Shown: positions 10,310 to 30,354 of the stretch, piece by piece
Layout of the letters: the number at the start of each line of letters is the position of its first letter
Position numbering within the stretch: the first letter of the stretch is position 1
From: a virus
Strand: one strand, 5' to 3'
DNA: 30,354 nt
Virus record (IMG/VR): IMGVR_UViG_3300030102_007482
Location: 1-30,354 of that record
Translations under genes and position numbers: made by a program
Notes under the pieces: generated by a model
Database searches by the model: none
What the model was told of the DNA's origin: nothing
What the model saw: only the letters and a program-made list of their open reading frames with translations

Positions 10310-10919
10310 AGATACTGCTTTAAATAATGTTGATATAGCAACAACTAAAATTTATAAGGGTGTAAAACCAATGTGGGAACAACTAGGATTTGAAAGTGAT
10401 GATAGTGATGTCCCAAATGAAAAAATTTATTGGAAAAATATAATACCAAATGATTATAATTTTTTTAATTTAAAAGACACTTTGTTGGTAAAGAATGTTG
10501 GTGTTGATGATGAAATTGGAGTATCTAGTGGCATGAAAACTCCAAGGCAATCTTATAATGAAATAGTTATACTTGATAATAGTTTGCAAGAATGGGAAAA
10601 TAATTATCTATATCCTATTTTGCCTAAGTTAGACGAAAATGGAATTTTTGAAAATGATGTTAATGTAGACACATCATATGGTGATGCTACAATGTCACCG
10701 ATAACTGATTTAAATGAAGTGGATGAAAATTTAATATTAGATATTGAATATAACATCCCTTTTGGAACTACCGAAGATATAATTGACAAAACAGAAATAA
10801 ATAAAATAGAATATAATCAAGATTTTCAATTGTCTCTTGATGAAAACCTAAGACTTAAAATTGATACTTTAATAATACCAGATGGTATAGAAACAGAAAA
10901 ATCAGAACAGGCATTTTAA
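10266..10919 (+). CDS. Structural protein fragment or small appendage protein, start uncertain
   Basis: The frame is open from before 10260. The ATG at 10266 would overlap the upstream gene by 44 bases; an alternative ATG at 10371 has an AAGGG site (10356-10360) ten bases before it. I keep the longer form because codons 10310-10370 read like protein (DTALNNVDIATTKIYKGVKP). The product is acidic, rich in Asn/Asp/Ile, with no recognisable domain; its C-terminus ends EQAF, as does the next protein. A +1 frameshift relative to the upstream gene could join the two into a product of about 780 residues. The start confidence is low; the coding confidence is good. Confidence 0.55.
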   Translation: MVIYYLNLEHLLTFKDTALNNVDIATTKIYKGVKPMWEQLGFESDDSDVPNEKIYWKNIIPNDYNFFNLKDTLLVKNVGVDDEIGVSSGMKTPRQSYNEIVILDNSLQEWENNYLYPILPKLDENGIFENDVNVDTSYGDATMSPITDLNEVDENLILDIEYNIPFGTTEDIIDKTEINKIEYNQDFQLSLDENLRLKIDTLIIPDGIETEKSEQAF

Positions 10920-10924
10920 TGGAA
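10905..10924 (+). repeat. 20-base gene-junction repeat, copy 1
   Basis: The 20 bases GAACAGGCATTTTAATGGAA span the stop/start overlap between the 10266 and 10919 genes. They are identical at 13013-13032. Confidence 0.85.
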
Positions 10925-13027
10925 TATTCTAAAAAAGAACAATATCCAAGTTGGTCAACACCAGGTGTTTATCCAGATGGTTCTATAAAAGAACTTGGAT
11001 TGAACAATGATAACTTAGAAGATTTTTCTTTAGGAAATTGGAATTCAATTGTAAAAGACAATAGAGTATTTACATTAGATACTGGTCAAATTCCAACTTC
11101 AGATCCTAGAGGTAGAGATGTTCGTGTTGGGTTTAATGCGGGTATACTTGAAAGACCTAATCCTCTTAGAAGAGTTAGATATAACAGAGAACTGATATCG
11201 GGCACTGCAGGTCAAAGAGGTGCGGAATATGGTGACATCCTAACTGATACTATTACTTTTTCATCCACACAGATAAATGCAAATCCTGATAATATACCCT
11301 CTATTAATTATAGTCAAGATGACCAAGATTCATTAGATGAATTTGTAAGTGGATTAAGACAAGATAGACATATGGAGGTTTGGGGACATTATTATTCAGG
11401 TGCTACCAACCAAAACACATGGGAAAATAGACAATTCAGACAAGAATTAAAAATCGATGTCAATGAGGATTTTCCTAACAATAATAATTTAGCCTATATA
11501 AAAGAAATACAAGAGGACAATCGTTTTAGATTTGAGTTTGATTTTGGAGAAAATAAAGGTTTGATTTATGAAAGAGCATTTGATGAAGGAGAAATAGAAG
11601 AAGCATCTTATGCTGGTAATTTTACACATGAACTTTTTTTTCCAAGAGAACTTAGGTTTAGAAATCCTAGTGAAGGCATTCATGTCATACTAAGTAATGT
11701 ATCATCTGTTCCATTAATAAACGAAGATGGTTTTTGGGAATTGGATATTTTAAATGATGGTTTTACTTCTGAAGCTATAGGTGATGAACCAACCTTTGAT
11801 TTTTTTAGAAGACTAGGAGCTCCAAACTTTGAGTATAATTTCTTTTTTGATGATTCTAGTATTATTAATAATATAAGACCTGATGACGAAATTTTTTTAA
11901 TTGATACCACAACAGTCAATCAAAATGAACTTTTATATTATAACGGTAAAGAAAAATCAGTTGAGTATAACGATACTTCTTATCCTTTAGAAGTTTCATT
12001 TAATGTACAATTATTTAATAATCTTGAATTTCAGAATGAAATATCAAACGAGAATTTACAAGATATATCCAATCTTTTTTATATAGATCCCGAGTTAAGT
12101 GAAGATGATATAGCTGAATTTGTTGGGGATGTAGATTTTGGAATAAATAATTCTTATTTTACCTATCAAGTTATTCAATGGGGCGATGAAAAAAAATTAT
12201 TATCTAATACCGATATACGAGATACATATTTTTTTAACCTTTATGATGTTGAGGAATATCCACAGAGCGATAATTATTTTTTACGAAAATGGTTTGCATC
12301 ACAAAATAGAGAAGCAGTTCCAATACAAGATTCGGTAAGTCATGTTTATAATACGCCCGGAGTCAAGTCTATAAAAATAATTATTTATAGATATGACAAG
12401 AGTAAATCTTTTTTAACACAAACTTACCTTGTAACAAAAAACATAGTTGTAAATGATGGACTTTTACAATCTCAAGATTTTGCTGTATTTGGCGGAACTG
12501 ATTTTAATTTTTTACCTATTGGAGATAATCAAGTAATTATAGGTGGATTTAATAAACAATCAGAATATCATACATCAGTATCTAAAATTGTAAAAGATGA
12601 CAACTTTATTTCAGAGGACTACCTACAGAAAGCTTCATCAAAGGATTATGTAGAAAAAATAAATGATGGGTTTTTAGGAGAAGGACCTGGACAAATTGAT
12701 TTGTCACAAACAAGAATTTTTACAGAACCAAGAGACATATATGATTTTATTGGAGCTGACAAGTTAGAGTGGATAACAAATGGCTTTGATGATTTACCAA
12801 TCAATAGTTTAGCTACCGATATATTTATAGATGATGATAAGTGTGTTGTTGATTTAAATCCAGCAAATTCTGAGTTTCTGATTATACAAAACCAAATGGG
12901 TTTTGAAGAACAAGGAATTTTAGTTGGAGACTATAAAGTTAATCAACCACAAGATGGTAAAATTCAAAGAGATGGTGTGATGAGAACACCTTTGCTAGAA
13001 ACTATAATAGATGAACAGGCATTTTAA
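10919..13027 (+). CDS. Large baseplate/appendage protein with PKD-like segment
   Basis: The 702-residue protein starts at an ATG overlapping the previous stop (TAATG). The middle contains a degenerate PKD-like region (about residues 410-510): YQVIQWGDEKKLL, later VSHVYNTPGVKSIKIIIYRYD, which matches the strand-turn pattern seen in the 8588-10309 protein. Other parts (RDVRVGFNAGILERPNPLRRVRYNR near the N-terminus) are unfamiliar. The C-terminus ends in DEQAF and the gene junction repeats a 20-base sequence also present at its own start. Probably part of the peripheral baseplate or short-fibre assembly; function is inferred from position and the PKD-like segment. Confidence 0.6.
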   Translation: MEYSKKEQYPSWSTPGVYPDGSIKELGLNNDNLEDFSLGNWNSIVKDNRVFTLDTGQIPTSDPRGRDVRVGFNAGILERPNPLRRVRYNRELISGTAGQRGAEYGDILTDTITFSSTQINANPDNIPSINYSQDDQDSLDEFVSGLRQDRHMEVWGHYYSGATNQNTWENRQFRQELKIDVNEDFPNNNNLAYIKEIQEDNRFRFEFDFGENKGLIYERAFDEGEIEEASYAGNFTHELFFPRELRFRNPSEGIHVILSNVSSVPLINEDGFWELDILNDGFTSEAIGDEPTFDFFRRLGAPNFEYNFFFDDSSIINNIRPDDEIFLIDTTTVNQNELLYYNGKEKSVEYNDTSYPLEVSFNVQLFNNLEFQNEISNENLQDISNLFYIDPELSEDDIAEFVGDVDFGINNSYFTYQVIQWGDEKKLLSNTDIRDTYFFNLYDVEEYPQSDNYFLRKWFASQNREAVPIQDSVSHVYNTPGVKSIKIIIYRYDKSKSFLTQTYLVTKNIVVNDGLLQSQDFAVFGGTDFNFLPIGDNQVIIGGFNKQSEYHTSVSKIVKDDNFISEDYLQKASSKDYVEKINDGFLGEGPGQIDLSQTRIFTEPRDIYDFIGADKLEWITNGFDDLPINSLATDIFIDDDKCVVDLNPANSEFLIIQNQMGFEEQGILVGDYKVNQPQDGKIQRDGVMRTPLLETIIDEQAF

Positions 13028-19661: not shown

Positions 19662-20480
19662 ATGTATAAACAATTCACAACTAATAATCAAAACACTTAT
19701 GAGTATAAGTCTAATAAGACTTTTAACCTAACTCAGTCTGATATAACACGACATCAATTTTTATCAGCCTCATCTAATTCTGTATCTAAAAGTTACTACG
19801 ATTTTGCTCGTATAAATTTTTATTTTAGTGGTTCACATATAAATGAAACGGCTTTTAATGAATCATTTACAATAGGAAATGACGGCACTGGTAAAAAAAC
19901 TTTTTTAAATAAATTTTACGAAAGTGGCTCTATTATTTTTATTCCACAATCAAAATTTGATGAGGGCATAAAAAAAGGTAGCTTTGTTTTAAATGATACT
20001 ACAACTGGTGCTAGAATAGTAGACGATAGTAATGGAAATCTTTTTTCTACAAATGCTACTTTTTCACAATCGGTATCTGCTTTATCATCTCAAGACAATT
20101 ATGTTGGCAATATATTTTATGATATAGGAGTGTTTACTATTACTGAAACAGCATCTTTTGATGGAGCAAATGATTATACAGATGTTACCAGTGGTAATTA
20201 TGAGATTAATTATCAAGGAATACATACTATTAACACTTATGAGTGGACTTGTGATACACAACCAAATGAACTTAATAATACAACTAATGTTACTACCTTT
20301 CATAGAAATGGATTAGGTCAATTAAAAGATAATTTGACGGGTAGTGATTTTCCAAATTATATATCAGAAATAGGATTATATGATGACCAAAATAGTTTAA
20401 TTGGTTATGCTAAATTATCAAAACCAATACCAAAAAGTAAAAAATTACCTATGAAGTTCTTATTGAGAATGGATTATTAA
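19662..20480 (+). CDS. Phage structural protein, paralogue of the preceding one in its C-terminus
   Basis: The 272-residue protein ends YISEIGLYDDQNSLIGYAKLSKPIPK, clearly related to the end of the 18588-19652 product. Both proteins also share an early SKSYYDF / QKSYYYN segment followed by short strands and a GSxH/GSG turn, so the two genes look like diverged duplicates. Aromatic and Asn/Thr-rich beta strands dominate. It is the last gene of the structural block before the cargo region. Function inferred as tail fibre or adaptor. Confidence 0.62.
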   Translation: MYKQFTTNNQNTYEYKSNKTFNLTQSDITRHQFLSASSNSVSKSYYDFARINFYFSGSHINETAFNESFTIGNDGTGKKTFLNKFYESGSIIFIPQSKFDEGIKKGSFVLNDTTTGARIVDDSNGNLFSTNATFSQSVSALSSQDNYVGNIFYDIGVFTITETASFDGANDYTDVTSGNYEINYQGIHTINTYEWTCDTQPNELNNTTNVTTFHRNGLGQLKDNLTGSDFPNYISEIGLYDDQNSLIGYAKLSKPIPKSKKLPMKFLLRMDY

Positions 20481-20482
20481 CA

Positions 20483-20490
20483 TATTTATA
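20483..20490. promoter_or_regulatory. TATTTATA motif in the gap before the 20504 gene
   Basis: The same octamer, directly before the AGGAG site. A sense promoter whose -10 is this element would start transcription after the ribosome binding site, so it is probably not a sense promoter for this gene. Confidence 0.3.
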
Positions 20491-20503
20491 TAGGAGAAAT
20501 ATT

Positions 20504-20794
20504 ATGAATACACCCTTAAATAAAATCGTACAATGGCAATTAGATTCAGGTCAACTTGACCATTGGACATCATATCACATAGCAGCTGGTTTATTTATTG
20601 CAAAAATAGCTCAATGGTTGGGAGCAACTGACTTTTGGGCAGTAATGTGGGTAGTTATAATTGGAATTGCATGGGAAATATTTGAATATATCATAGAGGA
20701 TTGGAGAGTCTATGGTAGTAAAAAGAAATGGGCATACAACACGGCAGCTGATATCATAGTAGAGGTTGGTGCTGCATGGTGGATGGTAGCTTAA
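20504..20794 (+). CDS. Small polytopic membrane protein (H...AG / WEIFEY type)
   Basis: The 96-residue product has a strong ribosome binding site (AGGAG at 20492-20496, seven bases before the ATG). Two to three hydrophobic segments are visible (about 24-42, 44-62, 80-95). Conserved-looking polar residues lie in or next to the membrane: DHWTSYHIAAGLFIA, then WEIFEYIIEDW and NTAADIIVEVGAA. This His...Ala-Gly...Glu...Asp pattern resembles VanZ-like or DUF2279-like small membrane proteins. The later gene at 23721 has a similar layout. It could be a holin or an envelope-modifying factor; the sequence does not decide. Confidence 0.65.
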   Translation: MNTPLNKIVQWQLDSGQLDHWTSYHIAAGLFIAKIAQWLGATDFWAVMWVVIIGIAWEIFEYIIEDWRVYGSKKKWAYNTAADIIVEVGAAWWMVA

Positions 20795-20813
20795 AACAAA
20801 TTAGGAGAAACAG

Positions 20814-22112
20814 ATGTTAAAGAAACTATTAATAGGAATAATCCTAACATCATCTTTGTTCGGCGAAAATGAAATATGGAAGTTCTTACAATACTCAACT
20901 GCATATGGTAGTTTTAGTTTAAATGCACCAAGACACCAAGATGATAGATTTGCTATTGTTGGTGGATTATCTTCGGGTATTCTACAAGTAGAAAGAACTG
21001 AAAGAGAATTAGAACCTGATTTTCAAACATCATTTGGACTTCGTAAGATTGGTAGATTTCAATACGAACCAAAGAGAGGTGTGAAGTCTGCTGGTAAAGG
21101 TGGAACTTGGTATGATGGTTCAGAACAGAACTCTAACGAAAGTGCCACATTTGGTCCTGTAAAGGGTTGGGAGTATTTACTAAAATATTCTGAAGGTAGA
21201 CAATGGGGAGACGATTATGTCAATCAAGAATATTGGATACGATATATCGGCGAATGGGCTATGGCTAAAGTTGGTATGACAGAATTAGGTCTTGAAGATA
21301 TTAGTTATGTTCATGGTGATTTAAGAGTACATTGGACACCAGAAATTCTAAATGATAAATTACATCTTAGTATCGGTTTAAAACATAGACAACATCCTGT
21401 TTATGGATTTGATGCCATGGTATTAGACACGACTTGGTATAAAGGTGCATGGTGGCAATTTGCTGAAAAGGCATTTGGTATAGATGATAATATGTGGTAT
21501 GACTCAACTATGATTGACCCGAATTCACCAACTGGTTGGAAAAAAAGAACACTATACGAGGTAGATCCCGAAACAGGTGAAATCAGAGAGGTTGAAGGAG
21601 AAGGACCTTTTTGGAATGGTCGTGGAGAGTATTGGGGACATGATTGGTTGTGGAGAGATGTTGATGGTAGAATATTTGCTTATACTGATAGAGAATACTT
21701 TATATATCACTTTCCTAGAATGTTAGAAAATTACATCGGTGATAAGAAAAAAGAGTTAGGATATCAAGGTGAAACATCAATAGTTTTAGGTGTGGATTGG
21801 TATCACTACTCTGATAGTTGGTGGTTACACTCTTGGGGTAATTGGTTACCATACCATTATGGTCATACTGATTATGCTTACCATAATGCAGCACATTACG
21901 CAACACATTTAGAAGAGGGTGGTGAACCAAGTGAATTTATGTTAATGGAGCCGATGTGGCATAGTTGGAATGATTATGATTTTGGTGCTATATTTGGTGT
22001 AAAAATTAAAGATAATTTAGGTGTGTTTACAGAAGGTCGTTACTTAAATTATTGGGAAAGACCAGCTTATGATATTAAGTTCGGTGTAAATTATCAGTTT
22101 GTAGGATGGTAA
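20814..22112 (+). CDS. Exported, Trp-rich, outer-membrane-like protein
   Basis: A signal peptide is evident (MLKKLLIGIILTSSLFG then ENE). The mature ~415 residues are extraordinarily aromatic: I count about 25 Trp in 432 residues, with clusters such as WYKGAWWQF and WYHYSDSWWLHSWGNW. Alternating strands and the C-terminus FGVNYQFVGW, ending in an aromatic residue, suggest an outer-membrane beta-barrel. No named enzyme family is recognised. The ribosome binding site is AGGAG (20802-20806). The next gene, a lipoprotein, starts two bases after the stop, so the two are probably made together. Tail fibres have no signal peptide, so this is an infection-stage protein acting on the host envelope. 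Confidence 0.65.
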   Translation: MLKKLLIGIILTSSLFGENEIWKFLQYSTAYGSFSLNAPRHQDDRFAIVGGLSSGILQVERTERELEPDFQTSFGLRKIGRFQYEPKRGVKSAGKGGTWYDGSEQNSNESATFGPVKGWEYLLKYSEGRQWGDDYVNQEYWIRYIGEWAMAKVGMTELGLEDISYVHGDLRVHWTPEILNDKLHLSIGLKHRQHPVYGFDAMVLDTTWYKGAWWQFAEKAFGIDDNMWYDSTMIDPNSPTGWKKRTLYEVDPETGEIREVEGEGPFWNGRGEYWGHDWLWRDVDGRIFAYTDREYFIYHFPRMLENYIGDKKKELGYQGETSIVLGVDWYHYSDSWWLHSWGNWLPYHYGHTDYAYHNAAHYATHLEEGGEPSEFMLMEPMWHSWNDYDFGAIFGVKIKDNLGVFTEGRYLNYWERPAYDIKFGVNYQFVGW

Positions 22113-22113
22113 A

Positions 22114-22686
22114 ATGAAAAGATTACTTTTATTATTTTCAATATTATTTGTTACTTGTGAGGATGATAGACTACCTGAACCTCAAGAAAACATTCAAATG
22201 ATTGTAAATGGTGCAGAAATTATTGCACGAGAGTATTACGAAAGTATTACAACATATGGGGCATCAGAGGTACAAGAAGATGGTTCTATAAAAAAAATAT
22301 TTGTGCTTCACTTTCAGAGAGAAGATGGTAGAGTTACACCTGAAAAAGAACATTATGCTTTGATTATGTATGATAATGATGGAGCAGATAATGGACAACC
22401 AATAGATGAGAAACTATACATAGGTGGTGCTGCAGTTGATTCACTTAGACCTGATTTACTCGAAGCCACTAGTGGTAGAATCACATTAGAAATTGTAGGA
22501 CTATCCGATTTCACAGAATTTGCACAAGCAACAATTAGTAAGTATGAAGATGGTAAAGTAGATGGTATAGCTGATGGATACTTCTTCAATCCTTATAGAA
22601 ATGAAATGCAACATGGTGTAATTATTTTTGAGAACTTGGAAGTAGGTTCAGATCCAGAAGCTACATTTTATCAAGGTGTTTATTAG
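22114..22686 (+). CDS. Predicted lipoprotein
   Basis: The 190-residue product starts MKRLLLLFSILFVTCEDD: a short positively charged and hydrophobic signal followed by Cys18, a slightly non-canonical lipobox (F-V-T-C). The mature part begins with an acidic linker (EDDRLPEPQEN) and continues with a beta-rich domain (KKIFVLHFQREDGRV, HYALIMYDNDGADNG, GRITLEIVGLSDFTEFA). I do not recognise a family. It sits between the Trp-rich outer-membrane-like protein and the MshEN-domain protein, and its stop overlaps the next GTG start by one base. Lipoprotein sorting is inferred. Confidence 0.62.
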   Translation: MKRLLLLFSILFVTCEDDRLPEPQENIQMIVNGAEIIAREYYESITTYGASEVQEDGSIKKIFVLHFQREDGRVTPEKEHYALIMYDNDGADNGQPIDEKLYIGGAAVDSLRPDLLEATSGRITLEIVGLSDFTEFAQATISKYEDGKVDGIADGYFFNPYRNEMQHGVIIFENLEVGSDPEATFYQGVY

Positions 22687-24130: not shown

Positions 24131-24169
24131 TAGGTAAGTACCAACAACGGTATGAAACTTAATTCAATG

Positions 24170-24174
24170 AGGAG
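24170..24174 (+). promoter_or_regulatory. Ribosome binding site deciding the first pilin-like start
   Basis: AGGAG lies seven bases before the ATG at 24182. The upstream in-frame ATG at 24152 has no such site, so 24182 is taken as the start. Confidence 0.75.
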
Positions 24175-24181
24175 AACTGAA

Positions 24182-24820
24182 ATGTTCACAAACTTAATTA
24201 AAAAACTTAAGAGTAACAAAGGTAATTCACTTGCTGAATTTGCTGTTACTACTGCTCTTATGGCTACATTAGCAACTACTGCTGCTCCAAAATTTGGTGC
24301 TGTTGGAAGTGGTGCTAAAGAAAAGAAAACGATGAATAACATCGATAAGATTTTAACTGTAGCTAATAACTACTACAACGCTGCTGTATCTGAAGAAGGA
24401 AAAGGTCGTTTTCCAGGTCAATCTAAGTATGACGCTCAAGTTGGTGGGTATGGTTTACCAGGTGATGTCGATACTGATGAAGCATTAGAAACATATGTAG
24501 AAGATATTCTTGCTGATATTGATTCTTATACTTCTGATAATTCAGACTTCGTATATGTGTTTTCACCAGCAATTGATGATGAAGATGCTCTACAAGGTGA
24601 TTGGATGAGTCTTGAAACATCAGTTGGTTTTGATGTTGATGGTGCCTCTGACTTCAAGAAAAACATGGGTAACAATGGTATATCATCACCCTTTCAGGAT
24701 GGTGCTTACATTTACTTAGTAATACCAGGTAGTGGAAGTGGTTCAACCGCTAAAGCTCCTGCTTTAATCGTAGCTGATGCTGAAAATCCAGCTCAGTTAC
24801 ATAAAACACTCGTACCGTAA
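24182..24820 (+). CDS. Type IV pilin-like protein, divergent N-terminus
   Basis: With the start at 24182 the 212-residue product has a 14-residue basic leader (MFTNLIKKLKSNKG) followed by NSLAEFAVTTALMATLATTAAPKF: a Gly at -1, Glu at +5 and a ~20-residue hydrophobic helix, the prepilin-peptidase site layout, although Phe at +1 is replaced by Asn. The rest contains FPGQSKYDAQVGGYG and a Gly/Ser-rich beta segment. It is the longest of four pilin-like products and the only one without FT[LI][IV]EL, so it may be the major or a specialised subunit. The leader has an inverted repeat and a terminator upstream, suggesting an independent transcript for 24182-26683. Confidence 0.7.
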   Translation: MFTNLIKKLKSNKGNSLAEFAVTTALMATLATTAAPKFGAVGSGAKEKKTMNNIDKILTVANNYYNAAVSEEGKGRFPGQSKYDAQVGGYGLPGDVDTDEALETYVEDILADIDSYTSDNSDFVYVFSPAIDDEDALQGDWMSLETSVGFDVDGASDFKKNMGNNGISSPFQDGAYIYLVIPGSGSGSTAKAPALIVADAENPAQLHKTLVP

Positions 24821-24829
24821 AAGATACGA

Positions 24830-24834
24830 AGGAG
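24830..24834 (+). promoter_or_regulatory. Ribosome binding site deciding the second pilin-like start
   Basis: AGGAG lies seven bases before the ATG at 24842 and only one base before the ATG at 24836, so 24842 (MKNNKGFTL) is the likely start. Confidence 0.7.
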
Positions 24835-24841
24835 AATGACA

Positions 24842-25270
24842 ATGAAGAATAATAAAGGATTTACCCTTATTGAATTAATAATGGTTACAATCATTTTAGG
24901 TATTCTTGCTGCTGTCGCTATTCCTAGATATGCCTCAACTGTTGTTAAGGCTGAGGAAGCTGCAGAAGATGCTGTAATATCTTCTATAAGAGCTGGCTTA
25001 GAAACATATGCCGTAGAACAACTTATGGAAAATGGTCGTAGAAGTTGGCCTGATAATCCTTGGGATGCGTTAGATACAAAGCCCGCTGGATATGATGCCA
25101 ATGATAATGATGATGCTGATACAGATGGTGAGTGGACATATAATACCACTACAAACAAAATCACACATCAGAGAGGTGACAATTCTAGAGTTGGTTGGGA
25201 ATATGATAAAGGAACTCAAACAGGTGATAATGCTGATGTCGGAACTTTAGGTTCTAGAGCTGATCTATAG
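24842..25270 (+). CDS. Type IV pilin / GspG-like pseudopilin
   Basis: The 142-residue product has a textbook prepilin start: MKNNKG then FTLIELIMVTIILGILAAVAIPRY, with Gly at -1, Phe +1, Glu +5 and the hydrophobic helix that anchors the subunit in the membrane before assembly. The globular part contains SWPDNPWDALDTKPAGYDAND and the strand pair EWTYNTTTNKITHQR ... VGWEYD, similar in plan to GspG-type pseudopilins. This is a clear match to the major-pseudopilin family of type II secretion and type IV pili. It follows the divergent pilin after 21 bases and precedes two more. No peptidase, assembly ATPase or secretin is in the window, so it must rely on the host's. Confidence 0.85.
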   Translation: MKNNKGFTLIELIMVTIILGILAAVAIPRYASTVVKAEEAAEDAVISSIRAGLETYAVEQLMENGRRSWPDNPWDALDTKPAGYDANDNDDADTDGEWTYNTTTNKITHQRGDNSRVGWEYDKGTQTGDNADVGTLGSRADL

Positions 25271-25279
25271 GAGTTACTT

Positions 25280-25723
25280 ATGAAAAGCTCTGCCGGATTT
25301 ACTTTGGTTGAGTTGATTGTAACTATAACATTAGTGGGGATTCTCGTTGGTTCGTTAGTCCCCACTTTTAATAGTTTGACAAATCGAACTCAAAGACAAG
25401 TAAATTTATCTAATATGGAGACTATAAAAAATACTTTCATGCAGTATTATTACTTAAACCATATGAAAGGAAACCCACACTTTCCGCAATTGCCAGAAAA
25501 TGGTTTAATGGATTCAACATACAGAGAAATTAATTTAGAGGATGGTAGAACACCAGATAATTTATTTAGTGGTGATTTACCATATAATCAGAACGACAAT
25601 CCATATAATTATTATTGGGATGATGATACAAGCAAATATGGATTTATAACAAAAAGAATTGTAATAAAAGATATAGATCCTGATAGCCCATCTCTAAACG
25701 AATTTGTAGTTGGAGAAATTTAA
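25280..25723 (+). CDS. Type IV pilin-like / minor pseudopilin-like protein
   Basis: The 147-residue product starts MKSSAG then FTLVELIVTITLVGILVGSLVPTF: Gly -1, Phe +1, Glu +5 and the hydrophobic helix, so it carries the prepilin-peptidase site. The rest is unlike the second pilin: a long helix (LTNRTQRQVNLSNMETIKN), PHFPQLPENG, and a Tyr/Asn/Asp-rich region (YNQNDNPYNYYWDDD). It has an AGGAG site (25269-25273, six bases before the ATG). The next start overlaps its stop (TAATG), so the two proteins are probably made in step, as minor pseudopilins are. Confidence 0.8.
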   Translation: MKSSAGFTLVELIVTITLVGILVGSLVPTFNSLTNRTQRQVNLSNMETIKNTFMQYYYLNHMKGNPHFPQLPENGLMDSTYREINLEDGRTPDNLFSGDLPYNQNDNPYNYYWDDDTSKYGFITKRIVIKDIDPDSPSLNEFVVGEI

Positions 25724-26121
25724 TGAATGGTAAAGGATTTACACTTATTGAATTAGTAATAGTAACTCTAATTATTGGTATTATGAGTGTTATGGTTGTT
25801 CCAAGATATGAAAAAAGAATTGAATTAGAAGAACTAAGAGCTGAAAAAAAGTTTACTTATAAAATTTGGGAAGGATTAGAAGATTACGCAAAATATAAAA
25901 AGGAAACAATAGGAGTAGAAAGGTGGCCTGCTCACCCACTATCTGTTTTAGGTCGTACAAGAGGTGTCGTTGTTACTCATGAGTTAGGAATACCTGACCA
26001 AGATAACGAATGGCAATTTGATGGAACTAAACTATATCACAGGAGAATGAATGATGAGATTTGGTATTTCACATATGATTCCACTAATTTTTATTTGTCT
26101 GAACTTCCAACTAAGTTATAG
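25723..26121 (+). CDS. Type IV pilin-like / pseudopilin-like protein
   Basis: The 132-residue product starts MNGKG then FTLIELVIVTLIIGIMSVMVVPRY, a canonical prepilin N-terminus with a five-residue leader and Glu +5. The C-terminal part repeats the plan of the second pilin: ERWPAHPLSVLG, EWQFDGTKLYHRR, then IWYFTYD, so the two are probably paralogues. The gene overlaps the preceding stop by one base, and its own last 71 bases overlap the start of the next gene. It is the last of four pilin-like genes in a row. Confidence 0.82.
   Translation: MNGKGFTLIELVIVTLIIGIMSVMVVPRYEKRIELEELRAEKKFTYKIWEGLEDYAKYKKETIGVERWPAHPLSVLGRTRGVVVTHELGIPDQDNEWQFDGTKLYHRRMNDEIWYFTYDSTNFYLSELPTKL
26041..26045 (+). 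promoter_or_regulatory. Ribosome binding site inside the fourth pilin-like gene
   Basis: AGGAG lies five bases before the ATG at 26051 and eight before the ATG at 26054. It supports a start of the next gene inside the fourth pilin-like gene, in a different frame. Confidence 0.65.
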
Positions 26122-27224: not shown

Positions 27225-27971
27225 ATGGTACATTTAAAACAAATACTATTAGAGGGAGTTTTAGATCCTGGTATACTTAAAGCAGTATTTCTTGCTGGAG
27301 GACCTGGTAGTGGTAAAGGTTTTGTTGGAAGTGGATTATTTGGTATTCCAAAAAAAGTAAATGTATCAGCTTATGGTTTAAAACTTGTAAATCAAGATAA
27401 AGAGTTAGTTCGTATGTTAAACAAGTATGGATTTGGAACGGACTTAGATGATATGCCAGAGGAGTTATTTAGACAACTTACAGATCCTGATTATGAAGAT
27501 TATAGTGGATTGAGAGGTAGGGCAAAAGAGCTAACTAGACAGAGACAGAAGTTGTATATGGAAGGTCGTTTGGGAATGATTATAGATGGGACAGGTCATA
27601 AGTTTGATAAGATAAGAAAGAGAAAATTAGAATTAGAAGAAATAGGATATGATTGTTTTATGGTATTTGTCCATACAGATTTAGAAGTAGCACAAAAAAG
27701 AAATATGGAAAGACCAAGAAAACTTAATCCTGAAATTGTAGAAGAGTCTTGGAATGATGTTCAGAAAAATAAAATATACTTTCAAGGTCTTTTTGGAAAT
27801 GCAAATTTTATGATGGTTGATAATTCAAATACCTTAAGTGAAAAACAAGCAACCAAAAAATTTAATATGTTAGTAAAAAAAGGTATTGGTTCATTTATTA
27901 AAAAACCAGTAAAAAATTATCGTGGAAAAAAGTGGGTAGAAAGGCAACTTATTCTTAAAGGTATAAAATGA
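27225..27971 (+). CDS. P-loop kinase (zeta-toxin / AAA_33-like) with capsid-targeting-like N-terminus
   Basis: The 248-residue product contains a Walker A motif GGPGSGKG (residues 25-32, K31) directly after a strand AVFLA. The residue after Lys is Gly, as in adenylate kinases (GKGT), not the usual Ser/Thr. Later IIDGTGHKFDKIRKR and FMVFVHTDLEVAQKRNMERPR fit the Walker B and LID regions of zeta-toxin/kinase-like P-loop proteins. The substrate is unknown. The first ten residues, MVHLKQILLE, are the most divergent copy of the tag shared by the five genes to 29909, with [LI]-x-E at 8-10. It is followed with a four-base overlap by a HAD phosphatase gene, so the two may act on one substrate. Confidence 0.75.
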   Translation: MVHLKQILLEGVLDPGILKAVFLAGGPGSGKGFVGSGLFGIPKKVNVSAYGLKLVNQDKELVRMLNKYGFGTDLDDMPEELFRQLTDPDYEDYSGLRGRAKELTRQRQKLYMEGRLGMIIDGTGHKFDKIRKRKLELEEIGYDCFMVFVHTDLEVAQKRNMERPRKLNPEIVEESWNDVQKNKIYFQGLFGNANFMMVDNSNTLSEKQATKKFNMLVKKGIGSFIKKPVKNYRGKKWVERQLILKGIK

Positions 27972-27997
27972 TTAAGTTGAAAGATTTACTCTTAGAG
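27968..27997 (+). repeat. Tag-coding repeat, copy 1
   Basis: This 30-base block encodes MIKLKDLLLE. Its first 11 bases (ATGATTAAGTT) and the later AGATTTA recur at the same positions in the blocks starting at 28485 and 28900. It overlaps the stop codon of the kinase gene. Confidence 0.7.
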
Positions 27998-28492
27998 AAA
28001 AAACTAAGAGTATTTGATTTTGATGATACATTAGTAAAGTCTAACTCGAAAGTGTATGTAAATAATAGGGGAAAAAGAAAAGCTTTGACACCTGGTCAAT
28101 TTGCTATATACAATAAAAAGTCAGGAGATGAATTTGACTTTTCTGATTTTGATAAAGTAATTGAACCTAAGATGATAAAGGCTATGTTCAGAGTATTTAA
28201 AAATATTTACAAGGCAAGTGGTAGTAGACGATTAACTGTATTGACAGCAAGAGCTGCTTATAAACCTGTTAAAAAATTTTTAAAAGATGTTGGATATGAT
28301 GATGTTTATGTCGTGGCATTAGGAGATAGTAATCCACAGAAGAAAGCTGATTGGATACAAGGTCAGATAGAAAATGGATATGATGATATTTTGTTTCTTG
28401 ATGATTCTCCAAAGAATGTAAGAGTAGTCAAAAAACTAAAACAAAAATATCCAAATATTAAAATGGATGCGAGGGTAGTTAAATATGATTAA
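27968..28492 (+). CDS. HAD-superfamily phosphatase with capsid-targeting-like N-terminus
   Basis: The 174-residue product has all four HAD motifs: I RVFDFDDTLVKS (nucleophile D17, D19), II VLTAR (T93), III K125/K126 in NPQKKADW, and IV FLDDSPKN (D145, D146). There is no large cap domain, so it may act on a macromolecular or nucleic-acid end, as the phosphatase half of T4 polynucleotide kinase does; that comparison is inference. It starts MIKLKDLLLE, the tag copy closest to consensus, followed directly by the catalytic domain (KKLRVFDFDD). It overlaps the kinase gene by ATGA and the next gene by eight bases. Confidence 0.85.
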   Translation: MIKLKDLLLEKKLRVFDFDDTLVKSNSKVYVNNRGKRKALTPGQFAIYNKKSGDEFDFSDFDKVIEPKMIKAMFRVFKNIYKASGSRRLTVLTARAAYKPVKKFLKDVGYDDVYVVALGDSNPQKKADWIQGQIENGYDDILFLDDSPKNVRVVKKLKQKYPNIKMDARVVKYD

Positions 28493-28514
28493 GTTAACAG
28501 ATTTACTAGAACAA
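28485..28514 (+). repeat. Tag-coding repeat, copy 2
   Basis: This block encodes MIKLTDLLEQ, is very similar to copies 1 and 3, and overlaps the HAD gene's stop codon by eight bases. Confidence 0.68.
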
Positions 28515-28907
28515 AAGTTCAAAGAATGTCCACCAGCAACTCAAGACATCGCGATAAATACAAAAAACAGAGATGCTACTGTGAGGGATTACAATTACGG
28601 TCCTTTAAATGTAGATGAGCCAGGTGACTATTGGGAAAAGGTTGCAGAGAAATGGAACACTACAGTAGAGGCAGCAAGAACATCTCTTTGTGCTAATTGT
28701 ACGGCATTTGACATATCACCAAGAATGTTAGAATGTATGCCAGGTGAAACATCAGACGATGAAGGTGTATTGGGTTACTGTTGGATGCATCATTTTAAGT
28801 GTCACTCAGCGAGAGCTTGTCATACATGGGCAAAAGGTGGTCCTATAAAAGACGATAAGATTTCTTACATATGGGGTAAGAAAGCATTTGGGAAAAAAGA
28901 TGATTAA
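28485..28907 (+). CDS. Cys-rich probable metal/Fe-S-binding protein with capsid-targeting-like N-terminus
   Basis: The 140-residue product has seven Cys. Six lie in the core: LCANCTAFD, LECMPG, LGYCWMHHFKCHSARACHTW; the other is in KECPPATQD. The C-A-N-C-x-A-F ... G-Y-C-W-M-x-x-F-K-C pattern recurs in uncharacterised proteins of marine T4-like phages and would suit a Zn or Fe-S site, which I cannot prove. The protein starts MIKLTDLLEQ, with the tag's Glu at residue 9, one position earlier than its neighbours. It overlaps both neighbouring genes by eight bases (ATGATTAA). Confidence 0.7.
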   Translation: MIKLTDLLEQKFKECPPATQDIAINTKNRDATVRDYNYGPLNVDEPGDYWEKVAEKWNTTVEAARTSLCANCTAFDISPRMLECMPGETSDDEGVLGYCWMHHFKCHSARACHTWAKGGPIKDDKISYIWGKKAFGKKDD

Positions 28908-28929
28908 GTTAAAAGATTTATTATTTGAA
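28900..28929 (+). repeat. Tag-coding repeat, copy 3
   Basis: This block encodes MIKLKDLLFE and overlaps the Cys-rich gene's stop codon by eight bases, as copy 2 does with the HAD gene. Confidence 0.68.
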
Positions 28930-29352
28930 ACAGCAGATACTCGTGCTATGCGAGATTCTAAAAAAGGAGCGTCAAAACAATTTCTAAAAGATTTTGATAA
29001 GGCATTTAAAAAAAGGTCTAAAGAATTAGGATATGGTAAATTGAAAAAGATAGTAAAAACTTATGATATTCAAATATCAGCACCAAGAGACTTTGGAAAA
29101 CCAATTGATAGGGCAAAGAGAAAAGGTGTAGAGGTAGATTATCAGGTTGGCGATAGTGTAGTGCCTGGTAGAAAACTATATGAATATCCTTTAGAAGCTT
29201 TTATTAAAGATATGAAAAGGGGATTTAGTGGGTATAAGATAGAAAAGTCAGGTCCAACACATTTTTATTTAATGAAGGATGGAAATACATACCATTTAGC
29301 ATACACACCAGCTATGAATGGTGCTTTTGTAATAGGAAGCTCAAGATTGTGA
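28900..29352 (+). CDS. Hypothetical basic protein with capsid-targeting-like N-terminus
   Basis: I start at the ATG at 28900, not 28888, because it gives MIKLKDLLFE like its neighbours and overlaps the previous stop in the same eight-base way. The 150-residue product has a basic helical first part (SKQFLKDFDKAFKKRSKELGYGKLKK) and a mixed C-terminal domain (GRKLYEYPLEAFIKDMKRGF, HFYLMKDGNTYHLAYTP). No family is recognised. The high Lys content would suit DNA association inside the head, but this is inference. The next start overlaps its stop (GTGA). Confidence 0.68.
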   Translation: MIKLKDLLFETADTRAMRDSKKGASKQFLKDFDKAFKKRSKELGYGKLKKIVKTYDIQISAPRDFGKPIDRAKRKGVEVDYQVGDSVVPGRKLYEYPLEAFIKDMKRGFSGYKIEKSGPTHFYLMKDGNTYHLAYTPAMNGAFVIGSSRL

Positions 29353-29909
29353 TAAAGTTGTTAAATTTAATTACTGAAAAAATTGTCTTGGATGTTAAGG
29401 TTGGCGATGTTATATTAGCTGGTAGATTCAAAAACAAAAAAGTTGTTGTCAAATCCATAGGAAAAGATGAACATGGTATGCCAACAATAAATGGAAAAAA
29501 GGTTGTGAATTTTAGAATATCACCAAAAAACGAAATAAAAGAAAGAGTAGATTTTTATGATACGGCAAAACAGATAGTTAAGAAAGCCGGACTCAAATCA
29601 AAGGTTGTATTTGCTAAAAGAAAAGGAACTAAAGCAGATTACAATGTAGACACAGATACTATTTATATAGAACCAACATCAGATTTCAAAGATTTTTTAG
29701 TTACAGTATTTCACGAAATCGACCACGCTATGGATGCTAAAAAACTTGGTAAGAAAAGATATAAAGACAAATATGAAATGGAGATGAATAAGGCGGTTGA
29801 TAGGGGTGGAGATGCTCATGATGATAATTACTATGAAAAAAAGGCAGAAAGATTTGGTCGTAAGATGGCAAAAGACTATCTAAAGATTAATAGGAAAAAT
29901 ATTTATTAG
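29349..29909 (+). CDS. ImmA-like / M78-type metallopeptidase with capsid-targeting-like N-terminus
   Basis: The 186-residue product starts with a GTG and carries the tag MIKLLNLITE. A small beta-rich domain follows (~15-60: VGDVILAGRFKNKKVVVKSIG, HGMPTINGKKVVNF). The C-terminal domain contains the zinc motif HEIDH (122-126) in VTVFHEIDHAMDA, with a downstream Glu in YEKKAERFGRKMA (E163 or E167) as likely third ligand, the layout of ImmA/M78-type and related gluzincin-like peptidases. The substrate is unknown; it may be a host repressor or immunity protein if it is injected early. It overlaps its neighbours by four bases upstream and one base downstream. Confidence 0.75.
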   Translation: MIKLLNLITEKIVLDVKVGDVILAGRFKNKKVVVKSIGKDEHGMPTINGKKVVNFRISPKNEIKERVDFYDTAKQIVKKAGLKSKVVFAKRKGTKADYNVDTDTIYIEPTSDFKDFLVTVFHEIDHAMDAKKLGKKRYKDKYEMEMNKAVDRGGDAHDDNYYEKKAERFGRKMAKDYLKINRKNIY

Positions 29910-30354
29910 TGAAAAAATTAGGTTTGGATGCCTCGACAACTACAGTAGGATACGCATTTGTTGACGGCTCAGAAGTTATAGATATGGGTTTTATACCCAT
30001 TCAAAAAGAAAAGTCTATCAGAGATAAAGTTGAATTAACAATGGATACTATTACAGATATAGATCCGTTTGACCATGTTGATAAAATTTATATAGAAGAT
30101 AGTCTTTCAGGTTTTATGCGTGGTAGAACATCACAACAGACAATCATTAAACTGGCAAAGTTCAATGCTGTATTGACTTACTGTTTAGAATTTGCATATG
30201 GTGAAATAATAGATGGTATAAATCCTATGACAGCAAGAAAACACCTCTTTGGAAAAGCCAGAGTAAAAGGTGTATCAGCAAAAGATTTTGTAAAAAAAGA
30301 AATAAATTGCTTGTATAATTTAGAAGAATATGTTAAATTAACTAAGACAGGATT
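29909..30354 (+). CDS. RuvC-like resolvase/nuclease, 3'-truncated
   Basis: A GTG inside TAGTG (29909) opens a frame that runs off the window end. The product starts KKLGLDASTTTVGYAFVDGSEV: the first RNase H-like strand with catalytic Asp (GLDAS). Further on are IYIEDSLSGFMRGRTSQQ, the second strand with acidic residue E in IEDSL, and IIKLAKFNAVLTYC, typical of RuvC/YqgF-like Holliday junction resolvases. The last acidic motif is beyond the window. It lacks the MIKL tag of the five preceding genes, so the tag is not a general start feature of this phage. Likely role: DNA branch resolution during replication or packaging. Confidence 0.72.
   Translation, partial: MKKLGLDASTTTVGYAFVDGSEVIDMGFIPIQKEKSIRDKVELTMDTITDIDPFDHVDKIYIEDSLSGFMRGRTSQQTIIKLAKFNAVLTYCLEFAYGEIIDGINPMTARKHLFGKARVKGVSAKDFVKKEINCLYNLEEYVKLTKTG

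Follow-up and report, generated by a model that had tools for sequence, protein, structure and literature searches.

Why would five consecutive phage genes, encoding otherwise unrelated proteins, begin with nearly the same ten residues? The question is raised by the IMG/VR record IMGVR_UViG_3300030102_007482. The complete record, 30,354 bases long and hereafter called the window, is a fragment of the T4-like tail region of an uncultured marine virus. A preliminary description had proposed that five open reading frames (ORFs) at one end of the window carry a T4-like capsid-targeting sequence with a prohead-protease site. We find it very likely that the ten-residue start, hereafter the tag, is a T4-type capsid-targeting propeptide on a large and fast-changing set of cargo proteins. 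The tag is shared but confined to a minority of genes, co-occurs with the S77 protease and is concentrated among head-core genes; in addition, a cleavage motif is retained where leaders are swapped.

The five starts are exactly as first described (Table 1). The fifth uses a GTG start codon and the third tag stops at Glu9. In each protein an N-terminal leader, within the range of about 6–20 residues, is closed by [LI]-x-E, as read from the translations. The domains behind the tags are unrelated. Pfam recognises a kinase in the first protein, a HAD domain weakly in the second, nothing in the third and fourth, and MPTase-PolyVal below the cut-off in the fifth. The next gene, which is RuvC-like, has no tag; its domain begins directly at the start codon, without a leader. 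The RuvC-like gene at the same place in three relatives (G086, G087 and G091) is likewise untagged.

We called genes in the window and in the whole records of 16 relatives, and scored every start (BLOSUM) against three tag strings. A score of at least 22 was reached by 67 of 1500 gene starts (4.5%), compared with 1 of 6646 internal Met positions. For random viral contigs the figure was 1 of 887 gene starts (0.1%). In the window, such scores are confined to 5 of 33 genes, and all five are consecutive. Only 29 of 237,336 arrangements would place five genes side by side among 33 (p ~1e-4). The shared tag is not a product of chance. Nor is it a general feature of the phage's genes, which would have spoken against the preliminary description; it is absent from 28 of the 33 window genes, and each whole record of 200–270 kb holds just two to five tagged genes. 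An IMG/VR pattern scan for MIKLKDLLxE returned at least 119 stretches. Among the matches listed (80 loci), 71 of 87 coincided with gene starts that we had called, and the majority of the other 16 also looked like starts by eye. Pooling all loci gave at least 301 tagged genes. All-against-all BLASTP of the mature parts (tag excluded) sorted these into about 74 clusters that share no detectable homology past the tag. When 60 unrelated tagged proteins were aligned with MAFFT, the consensus was MIKLKDLLxE, with M1, K3, L4 and E10 each conserved in at least 90%. The same leader on otherwise unrelated proteins is the arrangement of a T4-type propeptide.

Conservation ends where cleavage is predicted. 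Across 74 non-homologous clusters, positions 2–8 carry 1.4–2.8 bits of information, position 9 carries 0.6 and position 10 carries 2.1. From position 11 onwards there are at most 0.28 bits. Because E10 belonged to the tag score, we reselected starts on positions 1–8 only. Glu was then found at position 10 in 54–60% of starts, compared with 2–16% at neighbouring positions. This positional comparison was used instead of an internal-Met control, which comprised 16 cases and probably included miscalled starts. For T4 IPIII, residues 4 and 7 are needed for targeting, and residues 8 and 10 for processing; gp21 cleaves after L/I-x-E (PMC9026906). Positions 4, 7, 8 and 10 of the tag are conserved, and are those mapped in IPIII.

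Mullaney and Black reportedly identified MKTYQEFIAE, in 1996, as the capsid-targeting sequence of the T4 internal proteins IPI, IPII and IPIII. Both ipII and ipIII open with this sequence in the T4 record. Like the tag, the T4 leader is N-terminal, ten residues long, ends in [LI]-x-E and precedes otherwise unrelated proteins. Both are conserved at positions 4, 7, 8 and 10, and both occur in phages with a gp21-family protease. Conversely, the sequences differ (MKTYQEFIAE in T4, MIKLKDLLxE here), and the T4 leader is found on few small proteins, whereas the tag is on at least 301 genes in about 74 clusters, many encoding predicted enzymes. Packaging, cleavage and injection have been demonstrated in T4 and are predicted for the tagged proteins. 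The T4 start nearest to the tag is that of gp24 (MAKINELLRE, then STTT). It scored 19.5, the top value among eight T4 head proteins tested, and tagged head-core proteins in our set start MAKLKDLLKE or MAKLKDLVKE. As a capsid vertex protein, gp24 differs from the cargo proteins considered here. The preliminary description is partly supported, and strongly so in its T4-type model, but the closest start is that of gp24 and not that of the internal proteins. Its citing of Alt alongside the internal proteins also differs in detail; T4 Alt is cut at ITE-6 and not at residue 10 (PMC5694885).

Homologues of the cargo domains occur behind different leaders. The kinase core GVxDPGILKA is preceded by MVKLKDLLTE, MSLKKLVEEITKPILQE, MDKLTKYLTEPFLIEE, MIKLKDLIQLDE and other leaders. 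In cultured Kyanoviridae it lies behind MKTFAELQE (Melnitz) and MIPFILKE (HTVC008M), both followed by G, and in the Agrobacterium phage Atu_ph07 it forms an internal domain preceded by EVTE. Similarly, the HAD core KKLRVFDFDDTL follows MIKLKDLLLE, the longer ...VEFGKVYSNPFxNAFxPINE, MIARSLFVE or MPISRTLFME. The N-terminal domain of the metallopeptidase follows MIKLLDLISE, MKLTDLLNE, ...SLNEN and others, and Cys-rich homologues start MIRLIDLLEQK or MIKLQDLLEQK. Homologues of the fourth gene with a one-residue insertion retain the site (MIKLKNLLLSE then T, MIKLKDILINE then T). Untagged homologues exist as well. A HAD homologue on a contig of a Flavobacteriaceae metagenome-assembled genome (MAG), L496, starts MKVKKLRVFDFDDTL, and a homologue of the metallopeptidase N-terminal domain (G003, 1647–1928) starts MPITIDVSIGDTILGGKF (MPITIDVSIGDTILGG). 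We searched the last 12 leader residues for [LIVMF]-x-E. The motif was present in 22 of 22 distinct leaders for the kinase, 40 of 40 for the metallopeptidase, 49 of 50 for the HAD protein and 3 of 3 for the fourth gene, the leaders counted not all being independent; the baseline is 18.5% of internal 12-mers. Leader and cargo domain can be separated, and the site is retained when leaders are swapped, less strictly so in the Cys-rich family.

A gp21-like protease was found in relatives, including the syntenic G086. Of 46 relatives' records, 12 match Peptidase_S77 (PF03420) at scores well above the Pfam cut-off; the window fragment has no match. The His, Ser and Asp residues of these proteins align with those of T4 gp21. 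Some members have an N-terminal LLIE, like LIE-9 of T4. The relatives' major capsid proteins contain QL[IL]xE then [SA], close to FLTE then A in T4. We also considered 19 tag-bearing records longer than 40 kb, drawn from the pattern scan matches listed, regardless of whether they held the HAD gene. Pattern-scan records were chosen because a HAD query would bias sampling. Among the matches listed, S77 was present in 9 of the 19 records, compared with 0 of 20 random viral records (Fisher p ~4e-4). The surroundings of the protease in those nine records were analysed on stretches of 14–20 kb. Here, 24 of 201 starts scored at least 20, mostly between the protease and the scaffold or major capsid gene; for random viral contigs the count was 7 of 887. 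In eight larger records, 17 of 29 tags were near the protease or the HAD gene, compared with 10.1 expected (p = 0.002 by simulation), a significant but moderate excess, these records having been found through HAD and hence being a biased sample. The count around the protease in the nine pattern-scan records is independent of that bias.

Individual contigs show the same arrangement. In G003 and G012, tagged genes are located between the protease and the scaffold or capsid genes. G086 is syntenic with the window (kinase 99% and metallopeptidase 95% identical) and has the same cassette. This single contig also holds a tagged Nudix-like protein, a terminase, a portal and an S77 protease. In G091, the S77 protease is followed downstream by a head-core cluster that contains a homologue of the Cys-rich protein and five more genes with the tag. 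The terminase, portal and Nudix labels on these contigs are our own reading of the sequences. Taken together, the gp21-type protease of the relatives and the crowding of tags in the head-core operon strongly support the proposed propeptide and prohead-protease site. The [LIVMF]-x-E retained at swapped leaders, and the agreement with the IPIII positions (PMC9026906), support it further.

What are the tagged proteins? Between G001, G086, G087 and the window, the genes flanked by the pilin-like region and the RuvC-like gene differ and the tag is constant. A gene content that changes while the tag stays is as expected for an exchangeable cargo cassette. The gene cluster in the window is a predicted cassette of this kind, with content changing between close relatives. 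Across all tagged proteins, Pfam identified NUDIX, HD, PAP2, GGACT, Zeta_toxin/AAA_33 and NT5C domains. Matches to ART-PolyVal and MPTase-PolyVal were below the cut-off; for the window metallopeptidase these were MPTase-PolyVal (5e-4; 20.6 bits compared with a cut-off of 27.5) and DUF6782 (1.4e-3). The HAD homologue on L496 matches DUF2608 above the cut-off (9e-7). A search of 50,697 phage records yielded one weak relative of the HAD gene, and no cultured phage carrying it was found. One of the Cys-rich relatives annotated as high potential iron-sulfur proteins directly adjoins capsid maturation protease genes.

Some further tagged or related proteins were seen. Cluster 1 (24 genes; L172 3263–4144, L166 3088–4002, L232 1451–2386 and others) is a common tagged family of ~300 residues with invariant FH, STxT, GxRW and NE motifs. 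Its confident model (predicted local distance difference test, pLDDT, 81.5) had no significant structural match in PDB or BFVD; an ART fold is a candidate reading. Distant HAD relatives occur within very long ORFs of L499 and L503 (>1100 and >2200 residues), on contigs binned as Bacteroidetes and Flavobacteriaceae, and a zincin-like HEILH motif, of the kind seen in polyvalent proteins, is also present in L503. In L497 (1602–3671), three tagged genes stand in a row, and their products include an ART-PolyVal-like protein and the HAD protein. This phage-like contig is in a Lake Baikal Flavobacteriaceae MAG bin, which hints at Bacteroidota hosts.

Polyvalent proteins and the Dar proteins of phage P1 offer comparisons. 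Iyer et al. (2017) proposed that proteins with MPTase-PolyVal or ART-PolyVal domains are injected along with phage DNA (PMC5512222). The tagged set has putative domains of both kinds, with Pfam matches below curated cut-offs. Polyvalent proteins are multi-domain, whereas the tagged proteins are mostly single-domain, each with its own short leader. The 186-residue window metallopeptidase does not combine several disparate domains. In one tagged relative (L222, 10136), a Nudix domain is joined to a weak MPTase-PolyVal match. In P1, a short N-terminal sequence of DarB sends the protein into the head, as proposed for the tag; unlike the tagged set, Dar proteins have no common consensus start (PMC9024508).

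As a T4-type propeptide, the tag would act as follows. Leu4 and Leu7 would attach each protein to the scaffold core while the prohead assembles, and docked proteins would become enclosed in the head. The gp21-type S77 protease of the phage would next cleave the [LI]-x-E site behind Glu10 and so release the mature protein within the head. There the protein would stay, to exit with the DNA at infection. We infer docking, cutting and packaging from sequence and gene context, and strongly infer that tagged proteins are targeted and cleaved. Injection into the host is plausible and is the least certain step.

Several observations weigh against this interpretation. The window record has no PF03420 match and no capsid gene; it is a 30-kb fragment without head genes. 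S77 is missing from 10 of the 19 tag-bearing records longer than 40 kb, including records of 207 and 167 kb, all of which may be incomplete. The largest records have few tags, some of them far from head genes. The cleavage motif [LI]-x-E is short and common. Of the 44 distinct leaders in the Cys-rich family, only 30 retain the site, and a leader is missing altogether from several members (MLVRIIKGIKKLV then CPP). Gene starts come from our own simple gene finder. Finally, the literature searched holds no virion proteomics or N-terminal mapping for these phages.

The tagged proteins could instead be prohead-core (scaffold-like) proteins, like T4 gp67 and gp68, that are targeted, cut and lost after assembly rather than delivered. 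Many tagged genes, including conserved core families, are indeed between the protease and the scaffold or major capsid genes, and T4 core proteins are likewise gp21 substrates (PMC5694885). Some members of the tagged set probably belong to the head core and are not cargo. However, the five proteins of the window, like many other tagged ones, are or resemble enzymes (kinase, HAD, metallopeptidase, Nudix, HD, PAP2, GGACT and ART-PolyVal), tagged proteins vary at a fixed locus between close relatives, and the tagged enzymes recall the domains of injected polyvalent proteins (PMC5512222). Furthermore, 29 proteins of the Atu_ph07 gene cluster spanning coding sequences (CDS) 31–76 were found in virions (PMC6102473). 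The kinase polyprotein of that phage is inside this cluster, at approximately CDS 53 by accession order, the numbering having at least one interruption; whether it is among the virion proteins could not be checked. This indirect hint is the only one that comes from experiment. Hence, we regard loss after assembly as an unlikely fate.

It is more doubtful still that the tag has nothing to do with the head and is a localisation or partner-binding signal (to a membrane or a replication compartment, for instance) with an incidental Glu. The tag does resemble a short amphipathic helix, and the tagged genes far from head genes in some of the largest records would fit such a role. Conversely, conservation stops sharply at Glu10, replacement leaders also end in [LIVMF]-x-E, the tag is associated with the S77 protease and the head-core operon, and it matches the T4 gp24 start. 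That the tag acts as DNA or in translation initiation, or records a recent gene-start duplication, with no role as a peptide, is barely credible: although four of the five tags are at overlapping gene junctions and three share the opening ATGATTAAGTT, synonymous codons are used in 0.42 of same-residue pairs, compared with 0.50 expected for free choice from the phages' own codon usage, so that codons vary nearly freely and the protein, not the DNA, is conserved; in addition, the tag is on about 74 unrelated clusters in diverse phages and has protein-level substitutes in cultured phages (Melnitz and HTVC008M).

The mechanism of the favoured T4-type propeptide is known from T4; the tag sequence, the breadth of cargo and the swapping of leaders appear to be new. 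In the literature searched, with most subscription journals outside it, there was no report of the tag sequence, its spread over ~74 clusters, leader swapping or a second leader class. On balance, we lean towards a broader proposal for uncultivated marine and freshwater T4-like phages. Here, a near-invariant tag would load a very large and rapidly exchanged enzyme repertoire into the virion, the tag and its kept site would mark dozens of uncharacterised families as injected early, and a second, longer leader would do likewise in sister clades. If so, a ten-residue sequence marks virion cargo in abundant uncultured phages from sequence alone, and dozens of protein families become testable candidates for early effectors or anti-defence proteins. 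The small internal-protein set of T4 would then exemplify a general system of exchangeable cargo, and the tag would offer a new loading signal for phage-based protein delivery.

The second, longer leader (~EFGKVYSNPFxxAFxPIxE, or GQVVSNPYARAF) was seen on HAD homologues (G018 35021, G020 48850 and L022-L064). It is also present on an unrelated head-core protein (DHEVSMAQ...PAWIQ) at G036 234529, G044 1706, L065, L070, L071, L073 and L076-L079. Its occurrence on both suggests a second class of putative capsid-targeting leader. At L231 (764–1066) both leaders are apparently in tandem. A third recurrent start, ~MKITKTQLKEMIREELxxE, was seen on a number of small genes that adjoin the protease or tagged genes (G013 20390–22166 and 2810, G014 10406–10925, G018 193541 and G020 154659). 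The window gene at 1598 (MKVNIFKKLIREVVREEL), located in the tail region, resembles it.

The coordinates of the tagged genes are listed in Table 1. In the window, tail genes are followed by pilin-like genes, the five tagged ORFs (27225–29909) and the RuvC-like gene.

Table 1. Tags, predicted cargo domains and the adjoining untagged gene in the window.
Feature	Coordinates	Strand	Remarks
Tag 1, MVHLKQILLE then GV	27225..27254	+	Putative capsid-targeting propeptide, with cleavage predicted after codon 10
Cargo 1, zeta-toxin/AAA_33-like P-loop kinase	27255..27971	+	Two Pfam matches exceed the cut-off: Zeta_toxin (2e-8) and AAA_33 (2.9e-7)
Tag 2, MIKLKDLLLE then KK	27968..27997	+	Predicted propeptide; homologues with swapped or no leader
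Cargo 2, HAD-like phosphatase, FDFDDTLV motif	27998..28492	+	Weak Pfam DUF2608/Hydrolase matches
Tag 3, MIKLTDLLE then QK	28485..28511	+	Predicted propeptide; Glu at position 9, not 10
Cargo 3, Cys-rich protein	28512..28907	+	Phage relatives annotated high potential iron-sulfur protein; no Pfam match
Tag 4, MIKLKDLLFE then TA	28900..28929	+	Predicted propeptide
Cargo 4, protein of no named family	28930..29352	+	No Pfam match; predicted structure not confident enough for use (mean pLDDT 46)
Tag 5, MIKLLNLITE then KI; GTG start	29349..29378	+	Predicted propeptide
Cargo 5, zincin-like metallopeptidase, small N-terminal domain first	29379..29909	+	HEIDH (HExxH motif) read from translation
RuvC-like gene without tag, start MKKLGLDAST	29909..30352	+	Negative control; cut by record end

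The tail region of the window includes a gp25-type baseplate wedge protein, with a match above the cut-off, and a gp6-like protein (30–35% to other phages). Four prepilin-like genes, three of which have GFTL-type starts, occur in a row in this region (24152–26121). The run of prepilin-like genes is conserved in G086 and G087, and partly in G091.

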